From Ignavibacteriales bacterium (GTDB lineage: Bacteria > Bacteroidota > Ignavibacteria > Ignavibacteriales > SURF-24), in assembly GCA_026390815.1 (NCBI GenBank), contig JAPLFH010000003.1, positions 1 through 64,000 of the forward strand: a DNA stretch of 64,000 nt, read 5' to 3'. Made by a program: the position numbers and the translations under genes. Below the pieces are notes generated by a model that did no database searches, was not told where the DNA came from, and saw nothing but the letters and a program-made list of their open reading frames with translations. Positions within the stretch are counted from its first letter, which is position 1. The number at the start of each line of letters is the position of its first letter. This document shows positions 49,779 to 64,000 of the stretch, in pieces.

Positions 49779-51299
49779 ATGAATATGGAATTTGCTAAAA
49801 TATATAACAGTATCTCTTACGTGCTTCCAGAAGTATCGATATCATTCTTTTTGATCCTGGTTTTATTAACCGATCTTATTTTTGGAAAGAACAAAAAAAT
49901 CATTCCTTACATTGCATTAACAGGAATTGCAGTTACGTTTTTCTTTGTTCTTAACCAGCTTACATTCAGCGGATTTGCGTTTGGAAAAGTATGGCACACA
50001 ACAGATACTCTTGGAATGATTACAGTAGATTCCTTTGGCGTATTTTTCAAGGTGATTGTGCTTGTTGCTACTACACTGGTAATTCTGTTTTCATTTTCTT
50101 CTGATGAAATAAATAAAAGCCTGGATAGAGCAGGCGAATATTATACTTTGATATTTGGAATGGTTCTCGGAATGTTCCTGATGATTTCTGCTTCTGATTT
50201 AATCCTCATCTATCTTTCTCTCGAATTGCTTTCTTTATCTTCTTACGTGTTGGCAGGATTTACAAAGTTAAGAGACAGGAACAGTGAAGCCGCGCTTAAA
50301 TACATTATCTATGGCGCAGTTTCTTCGGGATTAATGCTTTTTGGTATTTCACTTTTCTTTGGAATGACCGGAAGTACTAACCTTTATGTTATAAATTCTT
50401 TAATGCAGGCACCAAGTATAAATACTTTTACGCTTGCAATGGCTTCCATATTAATTTTTGTTGGAATTGGTTATAAAATTTCTGCTGCTCCATTTCACTT
50501 TTGGACTCCTGATGTTTACGAAGGTGCACCGATAACTATTACAGCGTTTCTATCCGTTGCAAGTAAAGCGGCTGGCTTTGCTTTGTTGATAAGATTTGTT
50601 AAAACTACTTTCCTATCATCCATAAATCCATCAGGTCACTGGCAGATGATTCCTGTTTTCCCCTGGAAGGAATTGCTTACAGTAATTTCCATTTTAACGA
50701 TGACGCTTGGAAACTTCTCGGCACTCTGGCAGAATAATCTTAAAAGAATGCTTGCCTATTCCAGCATTGCACACGCCGGATATTTAATGCTTGGCTTGGT
50801 TGTATTATCAAACCAGGGATTGATTGCAATATTAATTTATTTTGCCTTTTATGCTTTTATGAATCTTGGAGCATTCTTTATTGTAATGTTGATTGCGAAC
50901 AAAACAGGGAGCGAGGATATTGAAGATTATAAAGGACTTGGTTACTCCACCCCATTTCTTGGAGTAACGCTGGGAATGTTCTTAGTTTCTTTAATTGGTC
51001 TTCCACCTTCGGCAGGATTTATTGGAAAGCTATATCTCTTTGTTGCATTGATCGATTCCAATATGATTGTTCTTGCTGTAATTGCAATTTTGAATACAGT
51101 AGTTTCATTGTTTTATTATATAAGAGTTTTAAAAGAAATGTTCCTTTCAAAACCATCCACCAAAGTTGCCCCGTTTAAAGTTTCTGCATATAACGTTATT
51201 GTTATTTTAATTTTGCTTGCACCAGTGGTAGTATTTGGAGTTTACTTTACCCCGGTTGTGGATTTTGCTAAAAGCTGTATAACGATATTTGGGTTATAA
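49779..51299 (+). CDS. nuoN: NADH-quinone oxidoreductase subunit N
   Basis: The third antiporter-like subunit, 506 residues and about 14 helices. Conserved LIYLSLELLSLSSYVLAGF, KISAAPFHFWTPDVYEGAP and LKRMLAYSSIAHAGYLMLG stretches carry the coupling glutamate and lysines. It is the last gene of the operon. nuoE, nuoF and nuoG are absent from both ends, so this complex has no NADH-input module here and must take electrons from another donor or from subunits encoded elsewhere. Confidence 0.96.
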   Translation: MNMEFAKIYNSISYVLPEVSISFFLILVLLTDLIFGKNKKIIPYIALTGIAVTFFFVLNQLTFSGFAFGKVWHTTDTLGMITVDSFGVFFKVIVLVATTLVILFSFSSDEINKSLDRAGEYYTLIFGMVLGMFLMISASDLILIYLSLELLSLSSYVLAGFTKLRDRNSEAALKYIIYGAVSSGLMLFGISLFFGMTGSTNLYVINSLMQAPSINTFTLAMASILIFVGIGYKISAAPFHFWTPDVYEGAPITITAFLSVASKAAGFALLIRFVKTTFLSSINPSGHWQMIPVFPWKELLTVISILTMTLGNFSALWQNNLKRMLAYSSIAHAGYLMLGLVVLSNQGLIAILIYFAFYAFMNLGAFFIVMLIANKTGSEDIEDYKGLGYSTPFLGVTLGMFLVSLIGLPPSAGFIGKLYLFVALIDSNMIVLAVIAILNTVVSLFYYIRVLKEMFLSKPSTKVAPFKVSAYNVIVILILLAPVVVFGVYFTPVVDFAKSCITIFGL

Positions 51300-51340
51300 T
51301 CTGTAAGTTTAATCTAAAAAGTCTAACTTCATTAATGTCA

Positions 51341-51358
51341 TTCCCACTTTCACGGGAA
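51341..51358. terminator. Possible hairpin after nuoN
   Basis: TTCCCACTTTCACGGGAA forms a short stem of the dispersed ATTCCC...GGGAA type. There is no strong T-run directly after it, so termination is uncertain. Confidence 0.35.
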
Positions 51359-51403
51359 CCTATTTTATAAAAAATATTTTACGTCCTAAATGCATTACAA
51401 CCT

Positions 51404-51727
51404 TCAGACACCATAAGCCTCAATCCTTTCAGAAATTAAAAGTTTTTTAGGTGATTGTCTGTTATCGAATAATTTTAGTATAACAATTTTATTGTCGATT
51501 AAGCGATAAATAATGGTAACCTGTTTCGAAAATACAAATGCTCTTATTAGTTTTGGTTTGAAAATAATTTTACCAATGAATGGAAATTGATTAAGAATTT
51601 TAAGTTGGTTTTCAAGTTTAGTTAAAAAATCAAATGCGGTTGTTTCAGTCCATTCCACTTTTAGATAATCAAGAATTTTTTCAAGGTCTTGTTGAGCAGA
51701 TTTTGTCCAGTATAGTTTAGTTAACAT
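51404..51727 (-). CDS. RelE/ParE-family toxin
   Basis: A 107-residue protein with the ParE/RelE fold pattern: WTKSAQQDLEKILDYL helix, a basic/hydrophobic core (PFIGKIIFKPKLIRAFVF), and the terminal strand (VTIIYRLIDNKIVILKLFDNRQSP). Members either poison gyrase (ParE) or cleave mRNA on the ribosome (RelE); sequence alone does not decide. The ATG overlaps the end of the upstream 82-residue gene by 11 bases, the classic toxin-after-antitoxin arrangement. Confidence 0.85.
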   Translation of the reverse strand: MLTKLYWTKSAQQDLEKILDYLKVEWTETTAFDFLTKLENQLKILNQFPFIGKIIFKPKLIRAFVFSKQVTIIYRLIDNKIVILKLFDNRQSPKKLLISERIEAYGV

Positions 51728-51965
51728 TTTTATATTTTGCCATTACAGTTTCATGTTCATCAAGATTAGCATTGTCTTCACTTTCTTCAAAGGATTGAAG
51801 TATTTCTGCCCTCTGCAATTCACTTATTACATTCCAATAATTATCCGCCACAATTGTTTGTTGTTTTAGAACATTAAATATTTTATAAACAAATTCAAGC
51901 ATTCCAGGATCATTTACATCATTAACTAATGAATGCAAATTTTCCTTTAATTCAGAGATAGACAT
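51717..51965 (-). CDS. Putative antitoxin of ParE/RelE-type pair
   Basis: A small acidic all-helical 82-residue protein (MSISELKENLHSLVNDVNDP ... ESEDNANLDEHETVMAKYKN) with no obvious DNA-binding fold. Its position directly upstream of and overlapping the toxin, plus its resemblance to other small helical proteins found beside ParE-type toxins, supports an antitoxin role. GGAG precedes the ATG. Confidence 0.75.
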   Translation of the reverse strand: MSISELKENLHSLVNDVNDPGMLEFVYKIFNVLKQQTIVADNYWNVISELQRAEILQSFEESEDNANLDEHETVMAKYKNVN

Positions 51966-52270
51966 ACTATTTCTCCACTTAAAATAATTTTACACCTTAA
52001 TTACAATTTCACTTATCGTTCAGGATTTCATTCAATTGGAATTAATCTTTCTACATTTAAAATAATATTACATTAACCTGTTTGCAACACTATAATTTGT
52101 TAACTACAGTTGTAGTTAGGAATAAGAAACAACAATCTATTAGAATTTTTTCTTCCCCGCGTTGCGATGTTTGCATTTCTCTTTTTAGTATCCATGTGTT
52201 AACGCATCACGGAATAGTCTGAGGCAGTAAAAATAACTTTTAATATTATGTTATAAATTTTATTTGTCTT
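51966..52270. repeat. Gap with accessory-strip repeat, copy 1
   Basis: The repeat runs about 52099-52210. It opens with TTAACTACAGTTGTAGTTA (an 8-base-stem palindrome) and passes through TTCTTCCCCGCGTTG. It ends near TGTGTTAACGCATCACGG. Related copies occur at about 54178-54258 and 55168-55277 in the same orientation. No gene is visible. Confidence 0.65.
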
Positions 52271-53050
52271 TCACGAACCGCTAAGTGATGTACGAAATAT
52301 CTTATAAATAATTTCGGAAATTCTTTTATGACCGATTTCATTTACCCTTTTTAAATCAGCACAGAAAAGGAAATTACCATGTTCATCCTTTGCACCAAAA
52401 AGGTTTGCATAAATTTGATTATGTAGAAACGAATATTGACTCATATATTTGTGTAATTTTTTTGATAGATGATTCTCAAGATTAGAGTAAGGTCTTGAAA
52501 CAGGTCCAGTAATTACAAGTGTAATACCGTATGTTTTACATAGTTCAATTATTTTAATCAATAAAGATAAATATTTAGAAAAAGCAGCAGACCAATCACC
52601 CATTATATAACCAAAGAAATAGTTTATTTCTCTAAATATATTCTGAACACTCGTACTAAATTTTGATTTTTTGCTCAATTCGTTATTAATAACTTTCTCC
52701 GAAGTACGCTTCTTTATTTTTCTATAGTTCAAATTAAATACGGCTAAATTAATATGCTTTATTAAGTTCCCATCTTTATCATAATATTTGGAATAGAATT
52801 TAGAAGAAAGAAGAATTGGTTCAACCCTTAAATGGAACAATAGACAATCCGGTTTCTCTTTATCAATAACTTCTTTAATATTTTCAAAACTTTTTGAGAT
52901 ACTTTCATATCTAATTATTCTTATGTCCAAATTAATATTAGATTCTTGTAATTTATTTTTTAACTGTTGATGGTATAATTTACTTGGTTCAATATTATCC
53001 TGTACTGGAAAGCATCCCCCAACGATTAGCAGCTTAATTTTTTGAAGCAT
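52271..53050 (-). CDS. SGNH-hydrolase-like protein (uncertain)
   Basis: A 259-residue protein with an alpha/beta pattern: a first strand LKLLIVGGCFP-like turn, DCLLFHLRVEP, a strand ITLVITGPVSRPY, and a C-terminal CADLKRVNEIGHKRIS helix where SGNH esterases carry their Asp-His pair. The catalytic serine of the GDS block is not visible (GGCF instead), so activity is doubtful and I give only a fold-level suggestion. It overlaps the end of the CitE-like gene by 17 bases, implying coupled translation and a shared pathway. Confidence 0.45.
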   Translation of the reverse strand: MLQKIKLLIVGGCFPVQDNIEPSKLYHQQLKNKLQESNINLDIRIIRYESISKSFENIKEVIDKEKPDCLLFHLRVEPILLSSKFYSKYYDKDGNLIKHINLAVFNLNYRKIKKRTSEKVINNELSKKSKFSTSVQNIFREINYFFGYIMGDWSAAFSKYLSLLIKIIELCKTYGITLVITGPVSRPYSNLENHLSKKLHKYMSQYSFLHNQIYANLFGAKDEHGNFLFCADLKRVNEIGHKRISEIIYKIFRTSLSGS

Positions 53051-54023
53051 CTAAAGCGCTTGTTTCTATTAAATACTTTTCGGCTGCAAGATATTCTTGT
53101 GGTGAAATAATAATTCTATTCTCCTTATTCATAGCAAAGCTTCTATCCTTAGTTATATTGGCTTCATATTCTTTAATTATCTTTTTTGCAATATCTTTTT
53201 TTATAATTTTGAATTCATTTTTATTAATAAAAGTTGTGTTCATAAGTGAATTACATTCATGAAGTGAGCATAACCTAACCTGATTTAATGATAGTGTAAT
53301 TTGACCAAAAATTCCATTTGTTCTTTGTCCTAACCTGTTTAACATATATAAAAAACTGCTATCATTATTCAGACGCAAATAAGGGGAATTGATAAATAGG
53401 ATATTGTAAACCTCACTTACACTCATAATAAAATTGATCCACTCCCAATACTTCTCAGAATCCTGGTGATAAAATGGAAAGTATCCATTGTTATAATTGT
53501 AATCACAATGACCAAAAGCTAATTTATTTGTAAAATTTTTTGATGAAATAATAATCTTTTCAAGATCATTAAAAGCTTTTTTGCTTTCTATAATTGGTAT
53601 TATTTCTAAAAATTCAATTTTTCTGTTCTTTAATATTTCTGAACATTTTTGTATTTCTTCTCCGCTTTCAATTTTCGGAAGGAATATACAATCCAGCGAT
53701 ATTCCACTTTTAATGCTTTCCAGTGTTTCAATGTCATTATAAAATTCTTTAGATCCAAAAACATTTATCCTTATACCAACTTTTGGTTTAACAAAATATT
53801 TAACTATAGATTCAATAGAACTTTTCACTTTTGCTCTGTGCATTTTTTTTTCTGCTTTTTTACCTGGTAAGTCTCTAACAATATCTTCAAGATCAAAACA
53901 AAGTACTGCATCTAATTCAAATATACTCCTGGCAAATTCCTGGATCTTATCATTAGTTGCTTTAGCAAAATGATATTTCTTAATTCTCAATTTCATGTTT
54001 TTAGTATTAACCCCAATATCCAT
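53034..54023 (-). CDS. CitE-like HpcH/HpaI aldolase/lyase-family protein
   Basis: A TIM-barrel of the citrate-lyase-beta/HpcH family, 329 residues. Landmarks are DAVLCFDLEDIVRD (metal-site region), GIRINVFGS (R85, substrate carboxylate/CoA region), FLPKIESGEE, EIIPIIESKKA (E146, metal ligand) and LAFGHCDYNYNNG (D174). Family members act on acyl-CoA or keto-acid substrates by C-C bond cleavage or formation. The substrate here is unknown. Two start codons are possible (54023, or 53996 giving MKLRIKKYHF); neither has a good ribosome-binding site. Its close partner is the SGNH-like gene. Confidence 0.75.
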   Translation of the reverse strand: MDIGVNTKNMKLRIKKYHFAKATNDKIQEFARSIFELDAVLCFDLEDIVRDLPGKKAEKKMHRAKVKSSIESIVKYFVKPKVGIRINVFGSKEFYNDIETLESIKSGISLDCIFLPKIESGEEIQKCSEILKNRKIEFLEIIPIIESKKAFNDLEKIIISSKNFTNKLAFGHCDYNYNNGYFPFYHQDSEKYWEWINFIMSVSEVYNILFINSPYLRLNNDSSFLYMLNRLGQRTNGIFGQITLSLNQVRLCSLHECNSLMNTTFINKNEFKIIKKDIAKKIIKEYEANITKDRSFAMNKENRIIISPQEYLAAEKYLIETSALDASKN

Positions 54024-54437
54024 TGTATATAAATATTTCCATCTATCTTTGTTGCTGAAGTAACATTAGAAAATCCGTTCATGGCTAAGTTATATTTTAT
54101 TCTATTTCTTAAATCCAGCGATATTGTTGTTAATTTTAGTTTTCTAAGGCAAGGTTTAGACATTGCCGACCGAGAAAGGCACTACAAGCAATTATTTTTT
54201 TCTTCCCCGCATTGGTATGCTTACATTACCCTTTTTTTTATCGTTGTTAACACTGCATGGGATGATCTGTGACGAGTTGGTATCTGTATAATGCCGAACA
54301 GTTTAAAGTAGCCGATTTTAGTCCACAATTTTGCATTTATCAAAATTAACTTATAAAATGAACTAATTCGTTTTTTGAACAAAAATGCATTTTATAAACA
54401 GGTCCATTAGTAGTTGCTGGTTATACACATTTTAGTG
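54024..54437. repeat. Gap with accessory-strip repeat, copy 2
   Basis: The core at about 54178-54258 (TTCTTCCCCGCATTGGTATG ... TATCGTTGTTAACACTGCA) is shared with copy 3 and more loosely with copy 1. The left arm differs. The rest is AT-rich with no supported gene; a 63-codon plus-strand frame here includes the repeat and is not convincing. Confidence 0.6.
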
Positions 54438-54713
54438 TTAAACTACTTCTATTCTGACTCTTCTTCCTAATGTTCTTGCGTAACGCCCAAGGGTAGAAAG
54501 CTTAATATCCTCTGAATGATTTTCTATTCTTGATATGACAGACTTTTTTGTTTTTAACTTTTTTGCTAATTCTTCTTGAGTTAATCCGGATTTTACACGC
54601 AACTGTTTAAGTAATATACCTATTTTAAAATTCTGATAACCTATATCATAATTTTCTGCAAACTCTGCATCTTCTTTTTTTCTTTGTGCAACATATTTTT
54701 TCAAATCACTCAT
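54438..54713 (-). CDS. HigA-like XRE-family antitoxin
   Basis: An antitoxin-repressor of about 91 residues with a Cro/C1 helix-turn-helix (LKQLRVKSGLTQEELAKKLK, TKKSVISRIENH). The ATG at 54713 is preferred; the frame extends 19 codons further into the toxin gene. It overlaps the upstream HigB-type toxin gene by 8 bases and follows it, which is the reverse gene order typical of hig modules. It would neutralise the toxin and repress the operon. Confidence 0.85.
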   Translation of the reverse strand: MSDLKKYVAQRKKEDAEFAENYDIGYQNFKIGILLKQLRVKSGLTQEELAKKLKTKKSVISRIENHSEDIKLSTLGRYARTLGRRVRIEVV

Positions 54714-55062
54714 TTCTTTTCTTCCTTTTATAATAGTTTCTTTTTCTTTCTTCTGCAACCTTAATTTCACTCAACGGTGTTTTTTGTGTTTTCTTCGCAA
54801 ATCCATTTGTTACCATAAAATTTCCATCTGGCTTAAAAAAACCTAATAACCTAAAAATATCCCCAGAATAAATTATTCTGATTGCCCAAATATCATCTGT
54901 GTTCCTTAACTTCTCAAAGTATTGTTTAGGAACTAAAGAAGTTTCCTCAAAAAGTTCTAAAATCCAAGTAACTTTTTTAGCTTGTTTTCCCGTAAGAGAA
55001 TTAAGAAATTCTTTTGCTGGATATTTTCCAGATTCCAGTTGATAAAAATTTACTTCTCGCAT
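54706..55062 (-). CDS. HigB-like (Gp49-type) toxin
   Basis: A 118-residue RelE-superfamily toxin of the phage-Gp49/HigB branch. It shows EFLNSLTGKQAKKVTWILEL, KLRNTDDIWAIRI, a FRLLGFF strand and the terminal GFAKKTQKTPLSEIKVAEER, which is the family signature. Family members cleave ribosome-bound mRNA. It is the first gene of the pair with the XRE antitoxin. Confidence 0.88.
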   Translation of the reverse strand: MREVNFYQLESGKYPAKEFLNSLTGKQAKKVTWILELFEETSLVPKQYFEKLRNTDDIWAIRIIYSGDIFRLLGFFKPDGNFMVTNGFAKKTQKTPLSEIKVAEERKRNYYKRKKRNE

Positions 55063-55347
55063 TTGTAAAGTTAGCCTAAATGCTAACCTTAATCAACAGA
55101 AAACCTTAATATTTTTATTGCGTATAACGATGTTGCCGCTAACCGGCTGCCCATTAATATTAAGAAAGCTAACTACAGTTGTAGTTACGAAAAAGGAACT
55201 ACAATCATTTAAATTTATTCTTCCACGCATTGGTATGCTTACATTACCCTTTTTATTATCGTTGTGTTAGCACTACACAGATTGATAAATTACGTGAAGG
55301 AATGGTTTGAAGTAATGCAACTCAGATTGATTCATATTATTCTATAC
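55063..55347. repeat. Gap with accessory-strip repeat, copy 3
   Basis: The repeat at about 55168-55277 begins CTAACTACAGTTGTAGTTA, contains ATTGGTATGCTTACATTACC and ends ATCGTTGTGTTAGCAC. It has the same orientation as copies 1 and 2. Together they separate the toxin-antitoxin and metabolic modules of this strip. No gene. Confidence 0.65.
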
Positions 55348-55527
55348 CAGTTGTGTGAATTAAATTGTAAACCCCGCCTACCGGCTGGCAGGCGTTAAAA
55401 CGGTTTTTATTTGCGTGGTTTATTAAGTAACCTACGAATTAATTCGTGGGTTGGCTAAAGAAAAGACTAGATCGTTAACTGTTTTAACAGTTTATCATTC
55501 TAAAATTTTTTAATTCACATAACCGGT
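55348..55527. mobile_element. MITE-like element, copy 2 (inverted)
   Basis: The reverse complement of 22405-22580 with few differences: terminal repeats GTTGTGTGAATTAAA and TTTAATTCACAT, the CGAATTAATTCGTGGG palindrome and an AACTGTTTTAACAGTT palindrome. Its presence 33 kb away in the opposite orientation supports a mobile element. Confidence 0.78.
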
Positions 55528-55546
55528 TATTTTATATAACTTTTTA

Positions 55547-55882
55547 TTACCCTAAAAATTTATCGCCATTAAAATGAATTGTATGATCAGGATCATTTCT
55601 TAACCAGATATAACTTCCCCAAGATATTTTTTGTGAAATTTTTGATAATTCATTCCTATCATTGAATAGTGTAAAAAAAACAACTTTACCTTTCCAATTT
55701 TTTAAATAGGATAAAATTCTATCCTTCTGCTCTTCAGATACAATTCCATTTTTACTTTGTGCAAAGATAATATAAATTGTGTCTTCCCTACAAAATGCAT
55801 TAATTGATTTATCCAGTAGAAAAATCTTTTTCGCTTTTTTAATAAATCGTTTTTTAAAATCAATAACAATCCCAACTTTCAT
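55547..55882 (-). CDS. Hypothetical protein
   Basis: A 111-residue basic protein of unknown family. It shows an alpha/beta alternation (IVIDFKKRF, AFCREDTIYIIFAQ, GKVVFFTLFND), and ends SYIWLRNDPDHTIHFNGDKF. The ATG is preceded by GAGGAT. It lies 7 bases after a methylase fragment, so it may be the surviving distal part of a restriction-modification or related locus. I cannot assign a function. Confidence 0.5.
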   Translation of the reverse strand: MKVGIVIDFKKRFIKKAKKIFLLDKSINAFCREDTIYIIFAQSKNGIVSEEQKDRILSYLKNWKGKVVFFTLFNDRNELSKISQKISWGSYIWLRNDPDHTIHFNGDKFLG

Positions 55883-55889
55883 ATTATCC

Positions 55890-56207
55890 TCAGTTTAATA
55901 AATTAATTAATAATATGTCTTTTGATTTATTTGTTTTAGCAAGATTTTCAATTAATGAACAAGCTATTACTCCGATACTACTCCCCGGATCTGAGATTTT
56001 ACTTTTTGCTTTTTGATTAAATAAAAGATTTGCCATATAATTGGCAATTTCAACTGGAGTAAAAAACTGTCCTAGATTTTTTTTATGAGTTGAGGTAACC
56101 TGTGAAGTATATAATAAACCTAATCTATCAGCATAAGTTGTAGGTGTTTCATCTTTTGCCGAAGGCATGGATTTCCAAATTGGTGTTACATCATTCCCGT
56201 CTCTCAT
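55890..56207 (-). pseudogene. N-6 DNA methylase fragment (Eco57I/type I-like), truncated
   Basis: The 105-residue frame matches the start of adenine-specific DNA methylases: the HKKNLGQFFTPVEIANYMAN motif that precedes the SAM-binding site, then SDPGSSIGV at the position of motif I (DPAxGxG). It stops about 30 residues later, well before the catalytic NPPY motif. No continuation was found in the neighbouring sequence. It is most likely the remnant of a lost restriction-modification gene. Confidence 0.7.
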
Positions 56208-56338
56208 AGAGCAAAAATACTGATATAAAACTTCCTATTCAATCATTTAAAAATATTTAAAAAACTGCTATGCAAGTTCTTATCATGTGTTACCTATTAA
56301 CTATTTTTTCTTCCCAGCAAGTGATCAGCAGGAAATTA

Positions 56339-57061
56339 TTAAGCGGCTTTTTTTATTCCCGGCATTTCATCCCAGGTTCTTCCTTCAAGCAATCGTCCAT
56401 TCTTCTTTTTATTTACACCGCCCCATTGCTTGAAGAAGAAAGGCACATTGGCTCTATTGCATTTATCTTTTATAGTTACTACCCATTCCTCTTCCATCGG
56501 TCTCGCACTGGGACCTGATTCCCCTCCAACAATTACCCAATCGATATTTTTTAAATTTAATTTTGTAATTGGTCCAATCAATGGTTCAATTGATAAAAAC
56601 TTCGTTTGTGCTTCTGTCTTTCTTAAATCATCAATTCTAAAAGTATAATCCTGGTTTTCTACACTTACTCCCATCCATATATTTTCTGCCCAGGTTAATT
56701 TTTTATTTAATTCCCATAATCTATCGGAACGTTTTGTTAGAATCTGGAAGCGATGCCAATAAGCTTTATTCATTACATCAAACATTTTTTGTATAAATTC
56801 AACTGGCACATTTTTATGAAAAAGATCACTCATTGAGTTAACAAAAATAGTCTGTGGTTTTTTCCAGGATAAGGGTAGTTCTAAAACCTGTTCTTGTAAA
56901 GTTAACTTAAATCCCTTTTCGTAATTAGGAGAGCCCATAGCTTTCAAGCGTTTTGCCATGCGCTCAGCATAACAAAACTTGCAGCCGGAACTAATTTTAT
57001 TGCAGCCTGTTATTGGATTCCAGGTTGATTCAGTCCATTCTATAGAAGATTTTTGTGCCAT
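56339..57061 (-). CDS. DUF5131 / phage Gp37-Gp68 family protein
   Basis: A 240-residue protein with the family's N-terminal signature [20 protein letters not shown] followed by [13 protein letters not shown]; the three closely spaced cysteines suggest an iron-sulfur or radical-SAM-type centre. Later conserved features include [32 protein letters not shown] and [11 protein letters not shown]. The family occurs in phages and accessory regions, often beside a three-Cys-motif partner (TcmP), which is not present here. The biochemical role is not established. The C-terminal [20 protein letters not shown] stretch is intact. Confidence 0.88.
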
Positions 57062-57476
57062 ATTTAAAATTCAAATTCTGGTTCAGTATTCCTTTTCTTT
57101 ACTTTCTTCCAAAAATTATATCCTTGTTCGTGCCTTGAAAAAAATGCTAAATAATATAATGGTAAATTCTTTTCATCTGATCTAATTGAAATAAAAAGCT
57201 GGATAAAACTTAAAGGAATTTAGAAAGAAAGGAAATAGAAAAAGAGATGATATCAATCTCAAATGATAATTTTGTAAATCATTATGTAATTTTTTTCGTC
57301 AATAGTATTTTATTCAAAATTTTTCCTAAATTATTTATTGTTACCAAATATTTAATTCCACCTAAATTATCACAAGAAATAAAGCTCTTTTAAATATTAT
57401 AAATTAAGAATTATTGTTCTTATTTATTTTATAGAATCAAAATAAACACTTTCAAAGCTTGAAAAGCGACACTTTA
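57062..57476. other. AT-rich intergenic stretch
   Basis: About 400 bases between the DUF5131 gene start and the end of the receiver-protease gene. It is very AT-rich, without hairpins or repeats that I recognise and without a supported gene. It should contain the DUF5131 promoter, which I could not place. Confidence 0.4.
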
Positions 57477-58622
57477 TTATAAAAGTTTTATTTTAGTTAT
57501 TCGATCCATAGAATTAATATATATCTCTATTGCAAATGTACGCAATAAATCACGACCATATAAAACTTGCCTGTTTTTATTATTTTGAATAAATGTACTA
57601 CTTTCCCAATCTTTCACAACTATGATTGTTAATTCTTTTTGAATTTCTTTTTCGAAATCATCAATTAATGAAATTGTTACTTTTTTTGTAAAATATTTGT
57701 AATCTCTACCTAAATGTATCCCGTATTCATTTGAACATATAAAATCAAAAATACTTGGTTCAACCAAATTTGAGGTAATAAATGAGCAATAAGCACCTGT
57801 ATCAAAATCATCTTTGATAATTCTATCATTAATTTTTGCAACAATAGTGGGATAAAAATCATTATCCAAATTTGTACGATTCCATTGTGTTAAAACATTT
57901 GGATCATAAAATGTATCTTCAGGCAATAATAATTTACTATAGGCAAACGGAATAAGATTTGTTCTATCACCAATTTGCACGAGTTCTTTTTCATTTGGAA
58001 ATTCTAACAAATCAGAAGAACCTTTATATAAATTTTCACCTATTACAACACACCATAGCCAGTTTTTTTTTGTTAATTCAATATCTATCCAATGTCCATG
58101 TTTCTCCCAATGAGATTCAACTGCTTTACTATAAAAGGATGTATTTGTAATGTAGTCATGGAATGTAATTAATTCCGGATAAATATTTTTGACTTTATTA
58201 TACTTGCCAGATTTTTCAAGAATAGTTTTAAAAAACCTTTGTGATAATAAAGGTTTTTGAAAATTTATTTCCTTTTGTTCTGTAATTATAGCTAAAGAAT
58301 TATCAATATAACTTTTATATTGTGGATCTGTTGTATAGGCACTATAAACATAAGTGGGTAAATGTTTAATTTTTTTATTTATATCTGATAAAAATCTTGC
58401 TCCATTTTCTAAAGCATCAAAAGGATCCATTTTGCAATCAACAATTAATCCACTATAATAATTAGTTTTTGATTCTAGAAAATTATTAGCTTCATTAATG
58501 GATGTAGCAACTTGAATTTCAAATAATTGTTTTCCTTCAATGATTAATAATTGTTTATAATTTTCTATGAATTGTGGTTCATCGTCCATCCATAATAATG
58601 GGATTTGATTTTTCACAGACAT
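57477..58622 (-). CDS. Response regulator with retropepsin-like aspartic protease output domain
   Basis: Residues 1-135 are a complete receiver: DDE at 13-15, phosphoacceptor D62 in GLIVDCKMDP, S94 in YVYSAYTT and K123 in FQKPL. Residues about 170-230 (HGHWIDIELTKKNWLWCVVI ... EFPNEKELVQIG) resemble the small domain found ahead of bacterial retropepsin-like proteins. Residues 255-380 then read as a retropepsin-like protease: PTIVAKINDRIIKDDFDTGA with the catalytic DTGA at 274-277, and the second signature VLYGRDLLRTFAIEI at about 353-367. The ATG follows GAGGA, which lies inside the end of the kinase gene only 2 bases away. A receiver controlling a protease is the inference; the domain call is from motifs, not a search. 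Confidence 0.75.
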   Translation of the reverse strand: MSVKNQIPLLWMDDEPQFIENYKQLLIIEGKQLFEIQVATSINEANNFLESKTNYYSGLIVDCKMDPFDALENGARFLSDINKKIKHLPTYVYSAYTTDPQYKSYIDNSLAIITEQKEINFQKPLLSQRFFKTILEKSGKYNKVKNIYPELITFHDYITNTSFYSKAVESHWEKHGHWIDIELTKKNWLWCVVIGENLYKGSSDLLEFPNEKELVQIGDRTNLIPFAYSKLLLPEDTFYDPNVLTQWNRTNLDNDFYPTIVAKINDRIIKDDFDTGAYCSFITSNLVEPSIFDFICSNEYGIHLGRDYKYFTKKVTISLIDDFEKEIQKELTIIVVKDWESSTFIQNNKNRQVLYGRDLLRTFAIEIYINSMDRITKIKLL

Positions 58623-58624
58623 AT

Positions 58625-60790
58625 TTATTCCTCACATATTGGTAATAATATTTCTAAGACTGCTTCTTTACCTGGTACAGATTTAATAAATTTAATGGAT
58701 CCATTAAAATATTGTATCAATTTCCGCGCATAAAACAAACCTAAACCAGTTCCATCTGGCCAAGTAGTAAAGAATTCATTAAATAATGAAGGTAATATTT
58801 GAGCCTCAATTCCTACACCCGTATCACTTATTTCAATTCGAAGCATTTTTGATTCAACAAGTTTCCTAACTGCTACAAATATTTCTTTCTTAGGAGATAA
58901 TTTATTTTCTTTAATAGCTTTAATAGAATTATTAAATAAATTAATTAGACTTTCGTATGCTAAATTTTTATCAATAATTACTAAATAATCTTCATTTGTC
59001 AACGAATGCTTAATACTAATATTTGTTCGAATAAGTCTATCTTCTATATACTTTATTGCAGGTCGCACGACATTTTCGACGAATAATATTTTTTGCGAAA
59101 TTGGTTTTAATGTTTTTCCTCTTTCTTGTGCTTGCTTAACAAGACCTGAACATAAATTCAATAATATTTTAAAGTTTTTTATTTGTTCTTCTAGTTCTTC
59201 TTTTTTACTATTTGGTTGTCCTGCTAAAGCATCTAAAAGCATTAACTCAGATCCTATTGTATAAACATGATTTCCTAACTCATGGAAAATTCTTAATGAT
59301 ACTTCTCTATAGAAAAACAAACTATCAGCTCTTTCTACCATCTTTTGTTTGATTTCTAATTTTTGAAATATTTCTGAAATAGATCTAATATTTGCTAATA
59401 AATTACTTATTGGTTCACTAAAGATTCTTAATGCAAGTAACTGTTCAATACCGAAAGCATTAATTTCATTAAAATTACCAACTTTAATTGCCCCTATATT
59501 TATTCCACTTTTAATTAATGGGTAATACATTACACTTTTTTCATCTTCAATAGTCTTTGGAGTAATAATGAAATTTAATTTTACTTTTTCCCAATTTTCA
59601 AATGAAATATTGTTTGGATTGAATTGAATAGCTTCACAGGTTAAGTCATCAAATGTCTTAGTAATAAAAAAAGCTTTGTTGTTTTTTATACAATGATATG
59701 TTAGACAATTATTCGAACTGAAATATTCTGTTTCAATCCCTCTTTCATAATGTTTATAGATTTTCCTAAAATAAAGTTTATTATTCTCTTCTTTTACAAC
59801 TTCTAAAATTGAAATTCCGTTAGCATTAAAAAAATTATTTAATATTTTAATTACATCATAAAGAACATCATCCTTTTCTCTATGAATATTTTCGATTTGT
59901 GTTAAGGTTTTTAAATTTTCATATTCTTGTTGCACCGTAATATGTCTCATAAGATGGAATATTTCTCGAGAACATAATTCATAAGAACTTATAAAACATT
60001 TGACCATATCATCTTTTGGGAATACATAAATTATATAGCTATAAACACCATTAAGAATAAATTTTGTAACATAGTACAAAATTTTTCCATTATAACTAGT
60101 TCTAATATTATTTGTTAATCCCGGTAATAATTCCTCACTAACAAATAAACTTTCATTTTTTGTTAATGCTTCATCTAATTCATTTATATATTTTTTTGTT
60201 ATTAATTCAAAATCCATTTTTATTAAACCTGCACTGGTATTAATGGAATATATTCCGGGAATATTTTCGCTTCTAATAACAGCAATAAACAAAGAATCAA
60301 TTTCTTTAAAAGATTTATTTAAGAATTTGTTGATTTTAATTTCTTGATTTATTTCTTTACGGGCTTCTTCATAATAAGAAATTAAATTTTTTATTTTATT
60401 TGATTGAATATTTAATTTGATATTTTCATATAAAGCATAAATTTTGGTTAGTAAATAAATTATATAATCTGCTGCTTTTTTATTAATAAAATGTATATTG
60501 CTATAACCTTTAAATAAATTGATCTCAACTGTTATCAAATTACTATGAATAAACACTATCTGAATTGAATCATTACTCTTTATTTCTTTTGTTTTTTCGA
60601 AAATTAAATTAACATTTATATCCTCTGTAAGATTAATTACTAGTATTTTCCCACTAATTTTTTCATCCATAAACTTCATGAGCTGTTCAATATCATTTAA
60701 TTCCAGCATTTGAGCACAGAGATCTATTTTTTTAATAATTGAAAATTCTTTTTTACTGAGTTTAAATGATGCTATTTTAAAGGTAACCAA
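58625..60790 (-). CDS. GAF-domain sensor histidine kinase
   Basis: A soluble kinase of about 721 residues. The N-terminal approximately 120 residues form an alpha/beta segment (GKILVINLTED, IQIVFIHSNL) that could be a degenerate receiver-like domain. A middle region and GAF domain follow (about 300-480). The phosphoacceptor helix has H503 in LRIFHELGNHVYTIGSEL, and the HATPase shows NLFNNSIKAI, DTGVGIEA and DGTGLGLFYARKLI. I place the start at the TTG at 60790: AAGGAG sits seven bases before it and directly follows the upstream stop codon. The ATG at 60856 would overlap the previous gene by 53 bases and lacks such a site. It abuts the receiver-protease gene, its probable partner. Confidence 0.88.
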   Translation of the reverse strand: MVTFKIASFKLSKKEFSIIKKIDLCAQMLELNDIEQLMKFMDEKISGKILVINLTEDINVNLIFEKTKEIKSNDSIQIVFIHSNLITVEINLFKGYSNIHFINKKAADYIIYLLTKIYALYENIKLNIQSNKIKNLISYYEEARKEINQEIKINKFLNKSFKEIDSLFIAVIRSENIPGIYSINTSAGLIKMDFELITKKYINELDEALTKNESLFVSEELLPGLTNNIRTSYNGKILYYVTKFILNGVYSYIIYVFPKDDMVKCFISSYELCSREIFHLMRHITVQQEYENLKTLTQIENIHREKDDVLYDVIKILNNFFNANGISILEVVKEENNKLYFRKIYKHYERGIETEYFSSNNCLTYHCIKNNKAFFITKTFDDLTCEAIQFNPNNISFENWEKVKLNFIITPKTIEDEKSVMYYPLIKSGINIGAIKVGNFNEINAFGIEQLLALRIFSEPISNLLANIRSISEIFQKLEIKQKMVERADSLFFYREVSLRIFHELGNHVYTIGSELMLLDALAGQPNSKKEELEEQIKNFKILLNLCSGLVKQAQERGKTLKPISQKILFVENVVRPAIKYIEDRLIRTNISIKHSLTNEDYLVIIDKNLAYESLINLFNNSIKAIKENKLSPKKEIFVAVRKLVESKMLRIEISDTGVGIEAQILPSLFNEFFTTWPDGTGLGLFYARKLIQYFNGSIKFIKSVPGKEAVLEILLPICEE

Positions 60791-60803
60791 ATCAATTCTC
60801 CTT

Positions 60804-61145
60804 CTACCTAGACCAGGCCATAAAATATCTCTTCTTTGGTACAATTTCTTCTGCATCTATTTTACTACTATTGGCGTTAAAATTCTTCAAACTAGTCATT
60901 TCGGAAATTCCAAATGCACTTGAATAAATTATAAAGCTATTAAACAAAGCTAAAATACAAGAGATAAATGAAATCTCATTTTTTATTATAATAGCCGTAT
61001 AAGAAATTAATAATGATATAAAAAAACCCACATATTTAGGTTTCAATTTAAAAAGAAAAAACAAGGTTTGAGCTGAAAAATAAGTTGCCGTTACTGCACC
61101 ACTTAAAGTAAGAATATCTTCAGTAGTTAACAATTCTTGAATCAT
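60804..61145 (-). CDS. Small membrane protein, three predicted helices
   Basis: A 113-residue protein with hydrophobic segments at about 14-32, 39-54 and 60-80, followed by a charged C-terminal tail (SSKIDAEEIVPKKRYF). No family was recognised; size and topology are holin-like, but so are many small membrane proteins. AGAGGAG precedes the ATG. It lies 85 bases after the PIN-like gene and directly before the kinase, so it could be the membrane sensor or anchor of the system. Confidence 0.7.
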   Translation of the reverse strand: MIQELLTTEDILTLSGAVTATYFSAQTLFFLFKLKPKYVGFFISLLISYTAIIIKNEISFISCILALFNSFIIYSSAFGISEMTSLKNFNANSSKIDAEEIVPKKRYFMAWSR

Positions 61146-61230
61146 TTTTATCTCCTCTTAAGGGATTAATATAATTTATTATTTTTGTATTTCTATTCTT
61201 AAAGTCTATTAAACAAATGCCCTTCTATCA

Positions 61231-63234
61231 TTACATTTTCATAATAATTTTATTCTTTTTTTTTGAAATTAATTCCTTTATTTCATTACTAACTTTTATA
61301 TCTATCCCTATAATTTTTTCACTATACTTACTTAAAATTTTAGGTTTTAAATAATAATTTGAAAATAATATTGAGCCTATTATTTCAATACTAATTGCTG
61401 AAGCAATTATTTCAAATTTACTGTTTGATTGAATAAATAATATGACAATTGAAGTAAGAATTAATAAAACTAAAGGCAATATTAAAAAAATCATCAATTT
61501 GTTTTTTCTAAGTTTACCATCATATTCATCATGCAATTCTCCTTTTCTCCGATTTCTAAATTCTTCAATAAATAAATCACGTTCTTTAATCATTTCTTCT
61601 TTCTCATCTTTTAAAAACTGATTTTCAATTTGCGATTTTTCAAGATCAGTTTTTATTTTTAATTTTTCATTCTGAAATTCTCTTCTTAAAAATAAACTTG
61701 CTTCTTCTTCACTGGCTCCGGAAATCCTTATTTTATTTAATTTTTGTGCAATTTCAGTAACTTTTTCATCCGGCAATTCATTTATCTGAATTTTAGTGTC
61801 AAGTATATACGACAAGTCAGCTAGAGTAAACGCATTTTTTTCGGGAATTAGTGATAATTTTATAACATCAACAAAGAGTGGGGCAAAGCTTGTAGGATCA
61901 ATATCAATATCATCAATGTAATAAACCATTAGATTTATTAATACGTCCATACTTATGGCTATTGGAAATTCATCTCTAATTATATTTTCTATTGCATATT
62001 GCTTTATCGTCCCATCTTTGGTTAAAATCCAACAGTTTTCTTTTTTTCTTATAAATTGGGCACCTTGTAATAATCCAGCGTCATGAATTAGTGCATTTTC
62101 TCTTCTTGGTCTATTCCACCTTTTAATATTTATTTCATTTATTCTATTTTTTATAGAATTATCTTGTGAAGCTTTACATACAATCATGTTAACCTCATCA
62201 TCATCTAATAATTCTATTTTCAATCTATTAAAAAATCTATCCGGTATTTTATATAATGAGTTAAAAAATTGTGTAATTTCTTCTTCATCAGTTTGGTTTC
62301 TTTTAATTAAAGTCCTTATATAACAGTCATCAACCTTCATCAAAACTTCTATTGAATAATTCTTAAAAACATTTAATACTTCTATTTTTTTATTTTCAAT
62401 AACTCTTTGATATTCTTTTCGGCTAATTGGGAGATGTTTTGTCTTAATACCATATTTCAAAAAAATATTTTCCATATTTTCTAATGATTTGGAAAATTCG
62501 TATCCCTCAAGTCCTAATATCATTAAAATATTTGTATCCAATATTAAGGTTGCATTTTTTAGATATTCCAGTGAAAGATTGTCCCCAAATAATCTTGCCG
62601 TAAGTAAAGTTGTAGAAAATTTTGATGTGCCATATGCCCATAACAAATTAATATCTTCACTTCTATCACTATCAAGAAATTTCAAATATTGCTTCGCCAA
62701 CCAATTTTTATCTTTATCTGAAATAGTATTATAATTGTTAAAACTACTTTCTATTAATTCTCTAATTCTTAAAGTATTCTTGGAAAATTCTGTAGGATTT
62801 TTACAGATTTCATGGATCCATTCATAACTAAATTTCTCAAAAAAAGTGATTGTTAAATCTTCAAACCAATTTCTAACGATACTTTTATCACATTCTGTAT
62901 TTTCAAACCAATTTTCTATAACATTTTGATGGCAAATTTCATTTTCATTAAACGCACTCTCTATCTTTACTCTATAATTATTATCAAAATAGAATCCTTC
63001 ATCTTTGTGAAAAATTTTGTTTTCATTTATTAATTCTTCAATGGATTTATCAAAATCCTTCTTACTAATTTTGGTATGTGTTATATTATTTAGTTCTTCT
63101 TTTAATAAATTTCTTTTTACACCTTCACCACAGACAAATATTAATTTTAAAATTAATTGTGAAAGTGCAATACTTGATAGAGATTTAAATGTATTGTCAT
63201 GTTTAAGATAAAGTGTTAGTAGTTTTTTCTTCAT
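61231..63234 (-). CDS. Membrane-anchored PIN-like nuclease protein
   Basis: A 667-residue protein. The N-terminal approximately 85 residues look like a winged-helix-type domain, followed by a helical region. A PIN-like domain spans about 225-415 with the expected acidic residues: D233 in LILDTNILM, E274 in SRKEY, D385 in ALIHDAGLL and D407 in WILTKDGTIK. A coiled coil lies at about 505-560 (KLKIKTDLEKSQIENQFLKD). Two hydrophobic helices at about 580-603 and 608-626 suggest membrane attachment near the C-terminus. The ATG at 63234 has GGGAAG upstream; a TTG five codons earlier is less likely. It is the first gene of the four-gene unit. PIN enzymes usually cleave RNA; here that is inference. 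Confidence 0.7.
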   Translation of the reverse strand: MKKKLLTLYLKHDNTFKSLSSIALSQLILKLIFVCGEGVKRNLLKEELNNITHTKISKKDFDKSIEELINENKIFHKDEGFYFDNNYRVKIESAFNENEICHQNVIENWFENTECDKSIVRNWFEDLTITFFEKFSYEWIHEICKNPTEFSKNTLRIRELIESSFNNYNTISDKDKNWLAKQYLKFLDSDRSEDINLLWAYGTSKFSTTLLTARLFGDNLSLEYLKNATLILDTNILMILGLEGYEFSKSLENMENIFLKYGIKTKHLPISRKEYQRVIENKKIEVLNVFKNYSIEVLMKVDDCYIRTLIKRNQTDEEEITQFFNSLYKIPDRFFNRLKIELLDDDEVNMIVCKASQDNSIKNRINEINIKRWNRPRRENALIHDAGLLQGAQFIRKKENCWILTKDGTIKQYAIENIIRDEFPIAISMDVLINLMVYYIDDIDIDPTSFAPLFVDVIKLSLIPEKNAFTLADLSYILDTKIQINELPDEKVTEIAQKLNKIRISGASEEEASLFLRREFQNEKLKIKTDLEKSQIENQFLKDEKEEMIKERDLFIEEFRNRRKGELHDEYDGKLRKNKLMIFLILPLVLLILTSIVILFIQSNSKFEIIASAISIEIIGSILFSNYYLKPKILSKYSEKIIGIDIKVSNEIKELISKKKNKIIMKM

Positions 63235-63306
63235 ACTTTTTCTTCCCAAAACCTATAAAGATTTAAGTACTTCTACCGATAATAATATTGGGTACCTAAA
63301 TATTGC

Positions 63307-63346
63307 ATGGTGGAGCTGGATGGATTTCCTCTCCACCATTTTTTTT
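63307..63346 (+). terminator. Strong hairpin with T-run, plus strand
   Basis: ATGGTGGAG (63307-63315) pairs with CTCCACCAT (63331-63339) and is followed by eight T on the plus strand. Flanking genes are on the minus strand, so it is oriented away from them; on their strand it is a hairpin preceded by an A-run. It may mark the boundary of the four-gene unit. Confidence 0.55.
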
Positions 63347-63358
63347 GTTGATATAATT

Positions 63359-63562
63359 TCATTTCTTCCTATTATACGGTGATTGATTAGTAGGTTTCAA
63401 AGAAATCTTTTCTTCGCTTGCCTTTGACTGAACTGCTCCTTCAGTTCTACCTAATTTTAATCCAATTACTCTTGTCGGTGTATTTTGTTTTGCCAATTGT
63501 TTTAATTGGCTAACCTCATTTGGTGTCCATACTTTACCGCTGTTTCTTGTTGATTTAGACAT
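63359..63562 (-). CDS. Small Myb/SANT-like helix-turn-helix protein
   Basis: A 67-residue basic protein with a tri-helical pattern: VWTPNEVSQLKQLAKQNTP, TRVIGLKLGRTEGAVQSKAS. The tryptophan and the RTEGAVQSKA recognition helix resemble Myb/SANT-type or GcrA-like DNA-binding proteins. GGAG precedes the ATG. Its target is unknown, and it is separated from the PIN gene by a hairpin. Confidence 0.65.
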   Translation of the reverse strand: MSKSTRNSGKVWTPNEVSQLKQLAKQNTPTRVIGLKLGRTEGAVQSKASEEKISLKPTNQSPYNRKK

Positions 63563-63599
63563 AATTTAATCTCCAATGAATTTTAAAATTTTTTAATTT

Positions 63600-63624
63600 C
63601 TCCACCTCCCTTTCAGAGGTAGAG
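63600..63624. repeat. Hairpin between two small genes
   Basis: CTCCACCTC and GAGGTAGAG form an imperfect stem downstream of the right-edge gene. No T-run follows on the minus strand, so it may be a processing or weak termination site. Confidence 0.35.
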
Positions 63625-63693
63625 TATTCTAACTCATCCTTTTTCCACAATCTTATTCTTAAATGCGTTCACGCATTCTTTAATTACAAACTT

Positions 63694-63999
63694 CTACGTT
63701 CCAGATGTACCTGTTCCACTTCCATCACCACCAACAGGTATAGCAGGTTCTTCTTTTTTCCTGTGTCTTACACCTAAGTTTTTAATACCTCGTGCGGTAA
63801 TGTACTGGTTATAAAAATCGGAATTTTCATCTTTGTAAGATTCAACCAAGCCATCAATTTCCTCCTTAAGCAGCAGGCTTGCCTGTTCAAACAGTACATT
63901 AAGGGATTTTCTTGCACCACCACGTTCGCTGTAACCGGTTCCCTGCTCACCGATAGTTAATTCAAACCGTTTAATTTTAGCATCAAGCAAATCAATTTC
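63694..63999 (-). CDS. Partial hypothetical protein, cut by window edge
   Basis: The frame is open to the right end of the window, so the N-terminus is missing. The visible approximately 101 residues are helical and charged (KSLNVLFEQASLLLKEEIDG, FYNQYITARGIKNLG) and end in a Gly/Thr-rich tail (GGDGSGTGTSGT). No family was recognised. Confidence 0.6.
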   Translation of the reverse strand, partial: EIDLLDAKIKRFELTIGEQGTGYSERGGARKSLNVLFEQASLLLKEEIDGLVESYKDENSDFYNQYITARGIKNLGVRHRKKEEPAIPVGGDGSGTGTSGT

Positions 64000-64000
64000 C

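Follow-up and report, generated by a model that had tools for sequence, protein, structure and literature searches.

The outputs of two-component systems are mostly DNA-binding proteins, a smaller number being enzymes of the cyclic-nucleotide, methylesterase or phosphatase kind, and activation by dimerisation is common among response regulators. Proteolysis serves as the trigger in the gasdermin systems, where the effector, a pore former, is activated by a protease of the caspase- or trypsin-like kind. Among described systems whose effector is an enzyme, Detocs is a family of three genes in which a PNP effector cleaves ATP (PMC11249213). The retropepsin APRc, which is itself membrane-bound, provides the definition of the marks by which such enzymes are recognised, i.e. 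hydrophobic-hydrophobic-Asp-Thr/Ser-Gly-Ser/Thr/Ala and a downstream hydrophobic-hydrophobic-Gly, and it is also the bacterial enzyme for which the dimer requirement of retropepsins has been described (PMC4140852). As for nucleases, a part in phage defence has been validated for the PIN proteins DS-3 and DS-5 (PMC13092281).

The locus considered here, positions 57477-63234 of a 64,000-nucleotide window (the whole stretch of DNA that was analysed) from an Ignavibacteriales bacterium, encodes a histidine kinase, a receiver joined to a putative retropepsin, a small membrane protein and a PIN-like membrane protein. The receiver–retropepsin is its novel part, and would add direct proteolysis to the outputs of two-component systems. 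This novelty is provisional, because the literature search was limited to open papers; no paper found in that open literature describes either a receiver joined to a retropepsin or the four-gene set.

The gene run and its genomic island

The locus lies within an island of low GC, about 14.6 kb long and situated between nuoN, which ends at 51299, and a 5'-truncated cysteine desulfurase gene, which is without roughly its first 32 codons. The part of the island inside the window, 51315..64000, was recognised from a drop in GC and from an empty site in three other genomes from its family, in which nuoN and the cysteine desulfurase gene adjoin, about 100 bases apart; the desulfurase boundary itself lies past the window, at about 65.9 kb of the contig. 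The island is an acquired one with conflict genes, which is context for a defence role, not proof of it. An earlier note on this DNA had placed toxin–antitoxin pairs and a methylase fragment among the neighbours of the gene run, and the island does contain two toxin–antitoxin-type pairs, one ParE-type and one Gp49/HTH-type, along with restriction–modification remnants. These remnants, at 55547-56207, comprise a C-terminal fragment of a BsuBI/PstI-type restriction enzyme and an N-terminal fragment of an N6 adenine methylase, and to judge by these matches the pair is a decayed type II restriction–modification system.

Other contents of the island include a complete DUF5131 gene at 56339-57061 (E 3e-103). 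Its PADLOC matches are the candidate families PDC-M41B and PDC-M30B, and a GC of 35.5% sets it apart from its AT-rich neighbours. At 52271-54023, a gene for an HpcH/HpaI-like lyase overlaps a 259-residue gene that has no Pfam match, odd company for toxin–antitoxin genes. Just past the window, at 64.5-64.8 kb of the contig, the island carries a tandem array in which a 21-base unit, TCATTTCCAATTTCTAATTAC, is present in 14 copies.

Re-checking on the sequence bore out the arrangement first described for the run itself: four minus-strand genes, encoding in order the PIN-like protein (61231..63234), the small membrane protein (60804..61145), the histidine kinase (58625..60790) and the receiver-protease (57477..58622), with gaps of exactly 85, 13 and 2 bases. 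The last three genes are tightly packed and the PIN gene stands off from them by a gap with space enough for a separate promoter. All four have a GC of 24-28%, compared with 35% in the rest of the window (the first 51 kb). Terminator-like sites between the genes were not found beyond chance, and promoter-like sites in the run were no commoner than in shuffles, so a single transcript for the four genes is plausible. It had also been stated that each gene has a good ribosome-binding site; this stands for the second to fourth genes (GAGGAG, AAGGAG and GAGG), but not for the PIN gene, whose site (GGGAAG) is modest and the weakest of the set. The PIN gene starts with ATG, an alternative TTG being possible at 63249. 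The kinase gene very probably starts with the TTG at 60790, since AAGGAG stands before it; if it started instead with the in-frame ATG at 60856, it would run into the preceding gene, that for the small membrane protein.

Kinase and receiver-protease

The kinase, with 721 amino acids counted from the TTG, has a putative N-terminal sensor region followed by DHp and HATPase domains. It matches the HATPase_c profile at E 1.7e-14 and histidine kinases of the PDB at values to E 1e-13, and its motifs are intact, namely FHELGN at 502, which holds the phospho-accepting H503, NLFNNS at 617, DTGVGI at 656 and GTGLGL at 680. Hydropathy revealed no membrane helix in the kinase, which is predicted to be soluble. 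The product of the adjoining gene begins with a receiver domain (aa 8-125; Pfam Response_reg E 4e-6, with 27.3 bits, just below the curated 30.2) in which the phosphotransfer residues are all kept: the acid pair D13/D14, the phospho-Asp D62, S94 and K123. Taken together with H503, the N, G1 and G2 boxes and the 2-base gap between the genes, these residues make up a complete two-component pair, as had been proposed, and the two are well supported by their sequences as a phosphorelay pair, with phosphotransfer from this kinase to this receiver predicted.

Behind the receiver, at aa about 228-381, the protein has a C-terminal domain that looks retropepsin-like, an assignment which rests on motifs and on profile comparisons slightly above shuffles. 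The putative catalytic residue is D274, in F-DTGA, and 82 residues further on stands LYGRD, in which L-Y-G356-R-D provides the downstream hydrophobic-hydrophobic-Gly element of retropepsins. Compared with the family A2 signature, D-F-D-T-G-A retains DTGA and one of the two hydrophobics; two positions ahead of the putative catalytic Asp there is a D, where the published retropepsin signature has a hydrophobic. The strict double motif arose in none of 100,000 shuffles of the protein (a close variant in 3 of 100,000), and among 483 background frames it was found elsewhere only in two proteins that had been fetched as Asp_protease_2. The presence of this signature is in line with the earlier suggestion that the receiver is joined to a protease-type output.

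Comparison of the domain by hhalign with eight Asp_protease_2 proteins from related genomes gave a score of 22.3, where the best of 100 shuffles reached 18.6, and in this comparison the 28 residues round the DTGA motif had 36% identity to the retropepsin-like proteins. Profiles of Pfam, NCBIfam, PADLOC and the PDB gave no match to the domain. The missing family HMM match is weak counter-evidence, since APRc itself has been reported to share <14% identity with other retropepsins (PMC4140852). Single-sequence folding of the receiver-protease gave a poor model, with a pLDDT of 34.

Membrane proteins and the search for relatives

The PIN-like protein has 667 amino acids and comprises an N-terminal region, a putative PIN core, a coiled coil at about aa 510-575 and a C-terminal membrane anchor, which hydropathy resolves into two helices (aa 582-600 and 607-625). 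The acidic residues of the core, D233, E274, D385 and D407, stand in the order D, E, D, D and are invariant in the one relative found, from the genome G648, to which the protein shows 26% identity. The finding of these residues and of the two helices upholds its description as a PIN-like protein with a membrane anchor. The PIN-type assignment rests on motifs together with a profile comparison slightly above shuffles: hhalign against 17 PIN_4 sequences gave 26.2, where the best of 100 shuffles reached 23.5, and the alignment spanned 12 columns only. The protein was unmatched in Pfam, NCBIfam, PADLOC and PDB profile searches, and its single-sequence fold was likewise poor, with a pLDDT of 40. 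The small membrane protein (113 aa) has about three helices by hydropathy and, among Pfam, NCBIfam and PADLOC profiles, belongs to no known family.

The genome G648 comes from another order of the same class, and the relative was found there with E 4e-55. It is broken over two contig ends, between which there is no overlap and on which stand GTGTACTGTCCC and GGGACGTTACAC; the appearance of these mirror-image sequences suggests that they are the inverted termini of an inserted element, and for this reason the gene in G648 may be an interrupted copy. On neither side of it was there a kinase of this type or a receiver-protease, and downstream lies a gene for a membrane protein of the 8xMP family, which is without sequence similarity to the small membrane protein of our locus. 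From this neighbourhood, that of one relative at a contig break, the PIN-membrane family is one that exists apart from the kinase, receiver-protease and small protein genes.

The claim that the four genes form one conserved system was not sustained by a co-occurrence search of about 1,000 overlapping genome look-ups, in which this PIN relative, unaccompanied by kinase or protease, was the only one found. For the receiver-protease the search covered 395 genomes of the phylum and, together with the PIN protein, 391 of the class; further searches for the PIN protein took in 164 genomes from the order, 395 from the phylum and 98 from one other order, and those for the sensor part of the kinase 296 and 169 genomes, with overlap among the samples. 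Other phyla were covered by a motif scan only, and single-protein scans reach close relatives only. Artificial alignments that preserved the motifs and randomised every other position were used to choose search patterns and never as evidence. In the genomes, plasmids, phages and viral contigs searched, no relatives of the receiver-protease, the kinase or the small protein were found, and neither was a second example of the four-gene set, so the PIN gene is not independently tied to the other three.

The single-protein scans of plasmids, phages and viral contigs returned nothing specific, only generic kinases. A contig scan with the receiver motif [LC][LI]W[MIV]DDEP gave two chance matches, again to generic kinases, and two weak PIN matches (E 0.0006-0.007) were likewise put down to chance. 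A kinase cluster on a Leptolinea plasmid was rejected as a relative: its kinase is an ordinary one of the PAS kind, and after it come a single receiver, a receiver-GAF protein and an HD-GYP-type gene.

Possible functions and comparison with known systems

We favour, tentatively and with somewhat less than even confidence, an acquired two-component proteolytic switch of which the PIN nuclease is the most likely substrate. In such a switch, we infer, the soluble kinase would sense an internal cue and phosphorylate the receiver at D62, and the receiver would dimerise on phosphorylation, so that two retropepsin domains meet; as each active site of a retropepsin is built jointly by two chains, this dimerisation would switch the protease on. 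The active protease would then cut a membrane-associated partner from the same gene run, most likely the PIN nuclease, and the cut would fall between the catalytic core and the C-terminal membrane anchor, freeing the nuclease onto cellular RNA with growth arrest or defence as a possible outcome. Cleavage of the PIN protein and an anti-phage role, both put forward in the earlier note, are conjectural. Among candidate substrates the PIN protein comes first, though unproven: it is a natural one, since its core and anchor are joined by a coiled coil that could act as a cuttable tether and its gene belongs to the same run, but the G648 relative speaks for an ability to function in the absence of such a protease. 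The most specific version, in which receiver phosphorylation assembles a retroviral-type dimeric protease that frees a membrane-tethered PIN nuclease, giving a suicide or defence switch that operates by proteolysis and not by transcription, is distinctly more doubtful and, taken whole, unlikely.

Bacteria commonly control membrane regulators by cutting them at specific sites, and the kinase and receiver-protease may switch another target, whether the small membrane protein or an anti-sigma-like or envelope protein, with the PIN gene an independent neighbour in the island. This model carries nearly equal weight to that with PIN as substrate and is itself credible at somewhat under an even chance. 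It accords with the sole PIN relative, which has no such kinase or receiver-protease and an 8xMP gene downstream instead, and with the spacing of the run, where the other three genes are packed at 13 and 2 bases and the PIN gene is 85 away. The four genes nevertheless share a strand and the same low GC with no terminator between them, and one relative, broken at a contig end, is thin evidence on neighbourhood.

Two further readings dispense with cleavage altogether. The poor match to all protease profiles, and the replacement of the signature's first hydrophobic by D, would fit a C-terminal domain that has the retropepsin fold and serves binding or dimerisation without proteolysis, in a regulator acting by protein contact; this is improbable, given that DTGA and GRD are both intact and would be unlikely to persist unused. 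Slightly less credence still is given to the PIN and small membrane proteins as a toxin with its own restraint, beside a two-component pair that senses stress. PIN enzymes are typical RNase toxins, and the PIN gene of G648 is likewise followed by a gene for a small multi-helix membrane protein, albeit of another family; yet the small protein and the 8xMP protein have no sequence similarity, and the small protein gene is packed with the kinase gene, not the PIN gene.

Considering how the favoured proteolytic switch relates to described systems, the nearest in logic is Detocs, as both have a histidine kinase and a receiver-linked enzyme effector in a small cluster with a proposed defence role. 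Unlike Detocs, the present locus has a single receiver protein, on which a retropepsin-like domain is carried, and no PNP domain; no PADLOC model matches the four-gene set, and Detocs is defined by three genes with a PNP effector. With the bacterial retropepsin-like proteases (Asp_protease_2, PF13650, and APRc of Rickettsia) the protein has in common DTGA, the hydrophobic-hydrophobic-Gly element and one Asp per chain, but it differs from them in being joined to a receiver, encoded with a kinase and without a profile match. A dimer requirement of both receiver and retropepsin would amount to a simple phosphate switch for the protease, and a protease switched directly by a sensor kinase, if true, would be a new kind of output.

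The PIN-domain RNases (VapC toxins, PIN_4, DS-3 and DS-5) share the four acidic residues and an LDTN motif with the PIN-like protein, which, unlike them, is large, with an N-terminal region, a coiled coil, two C-terminal membrane helices and no profile match; no antitoxin for it was seen. If this protein is the target, two-component sensing would be linked to a nuclease weapon in one step. In that case the locus would resemble the protease-activated gasdermin systems, in that a protease encoded nearby is proposed to free the effector, and would differ from them in having a nuclease as the effector, an aspartic protease as its activator and phosphorylation as the switch.
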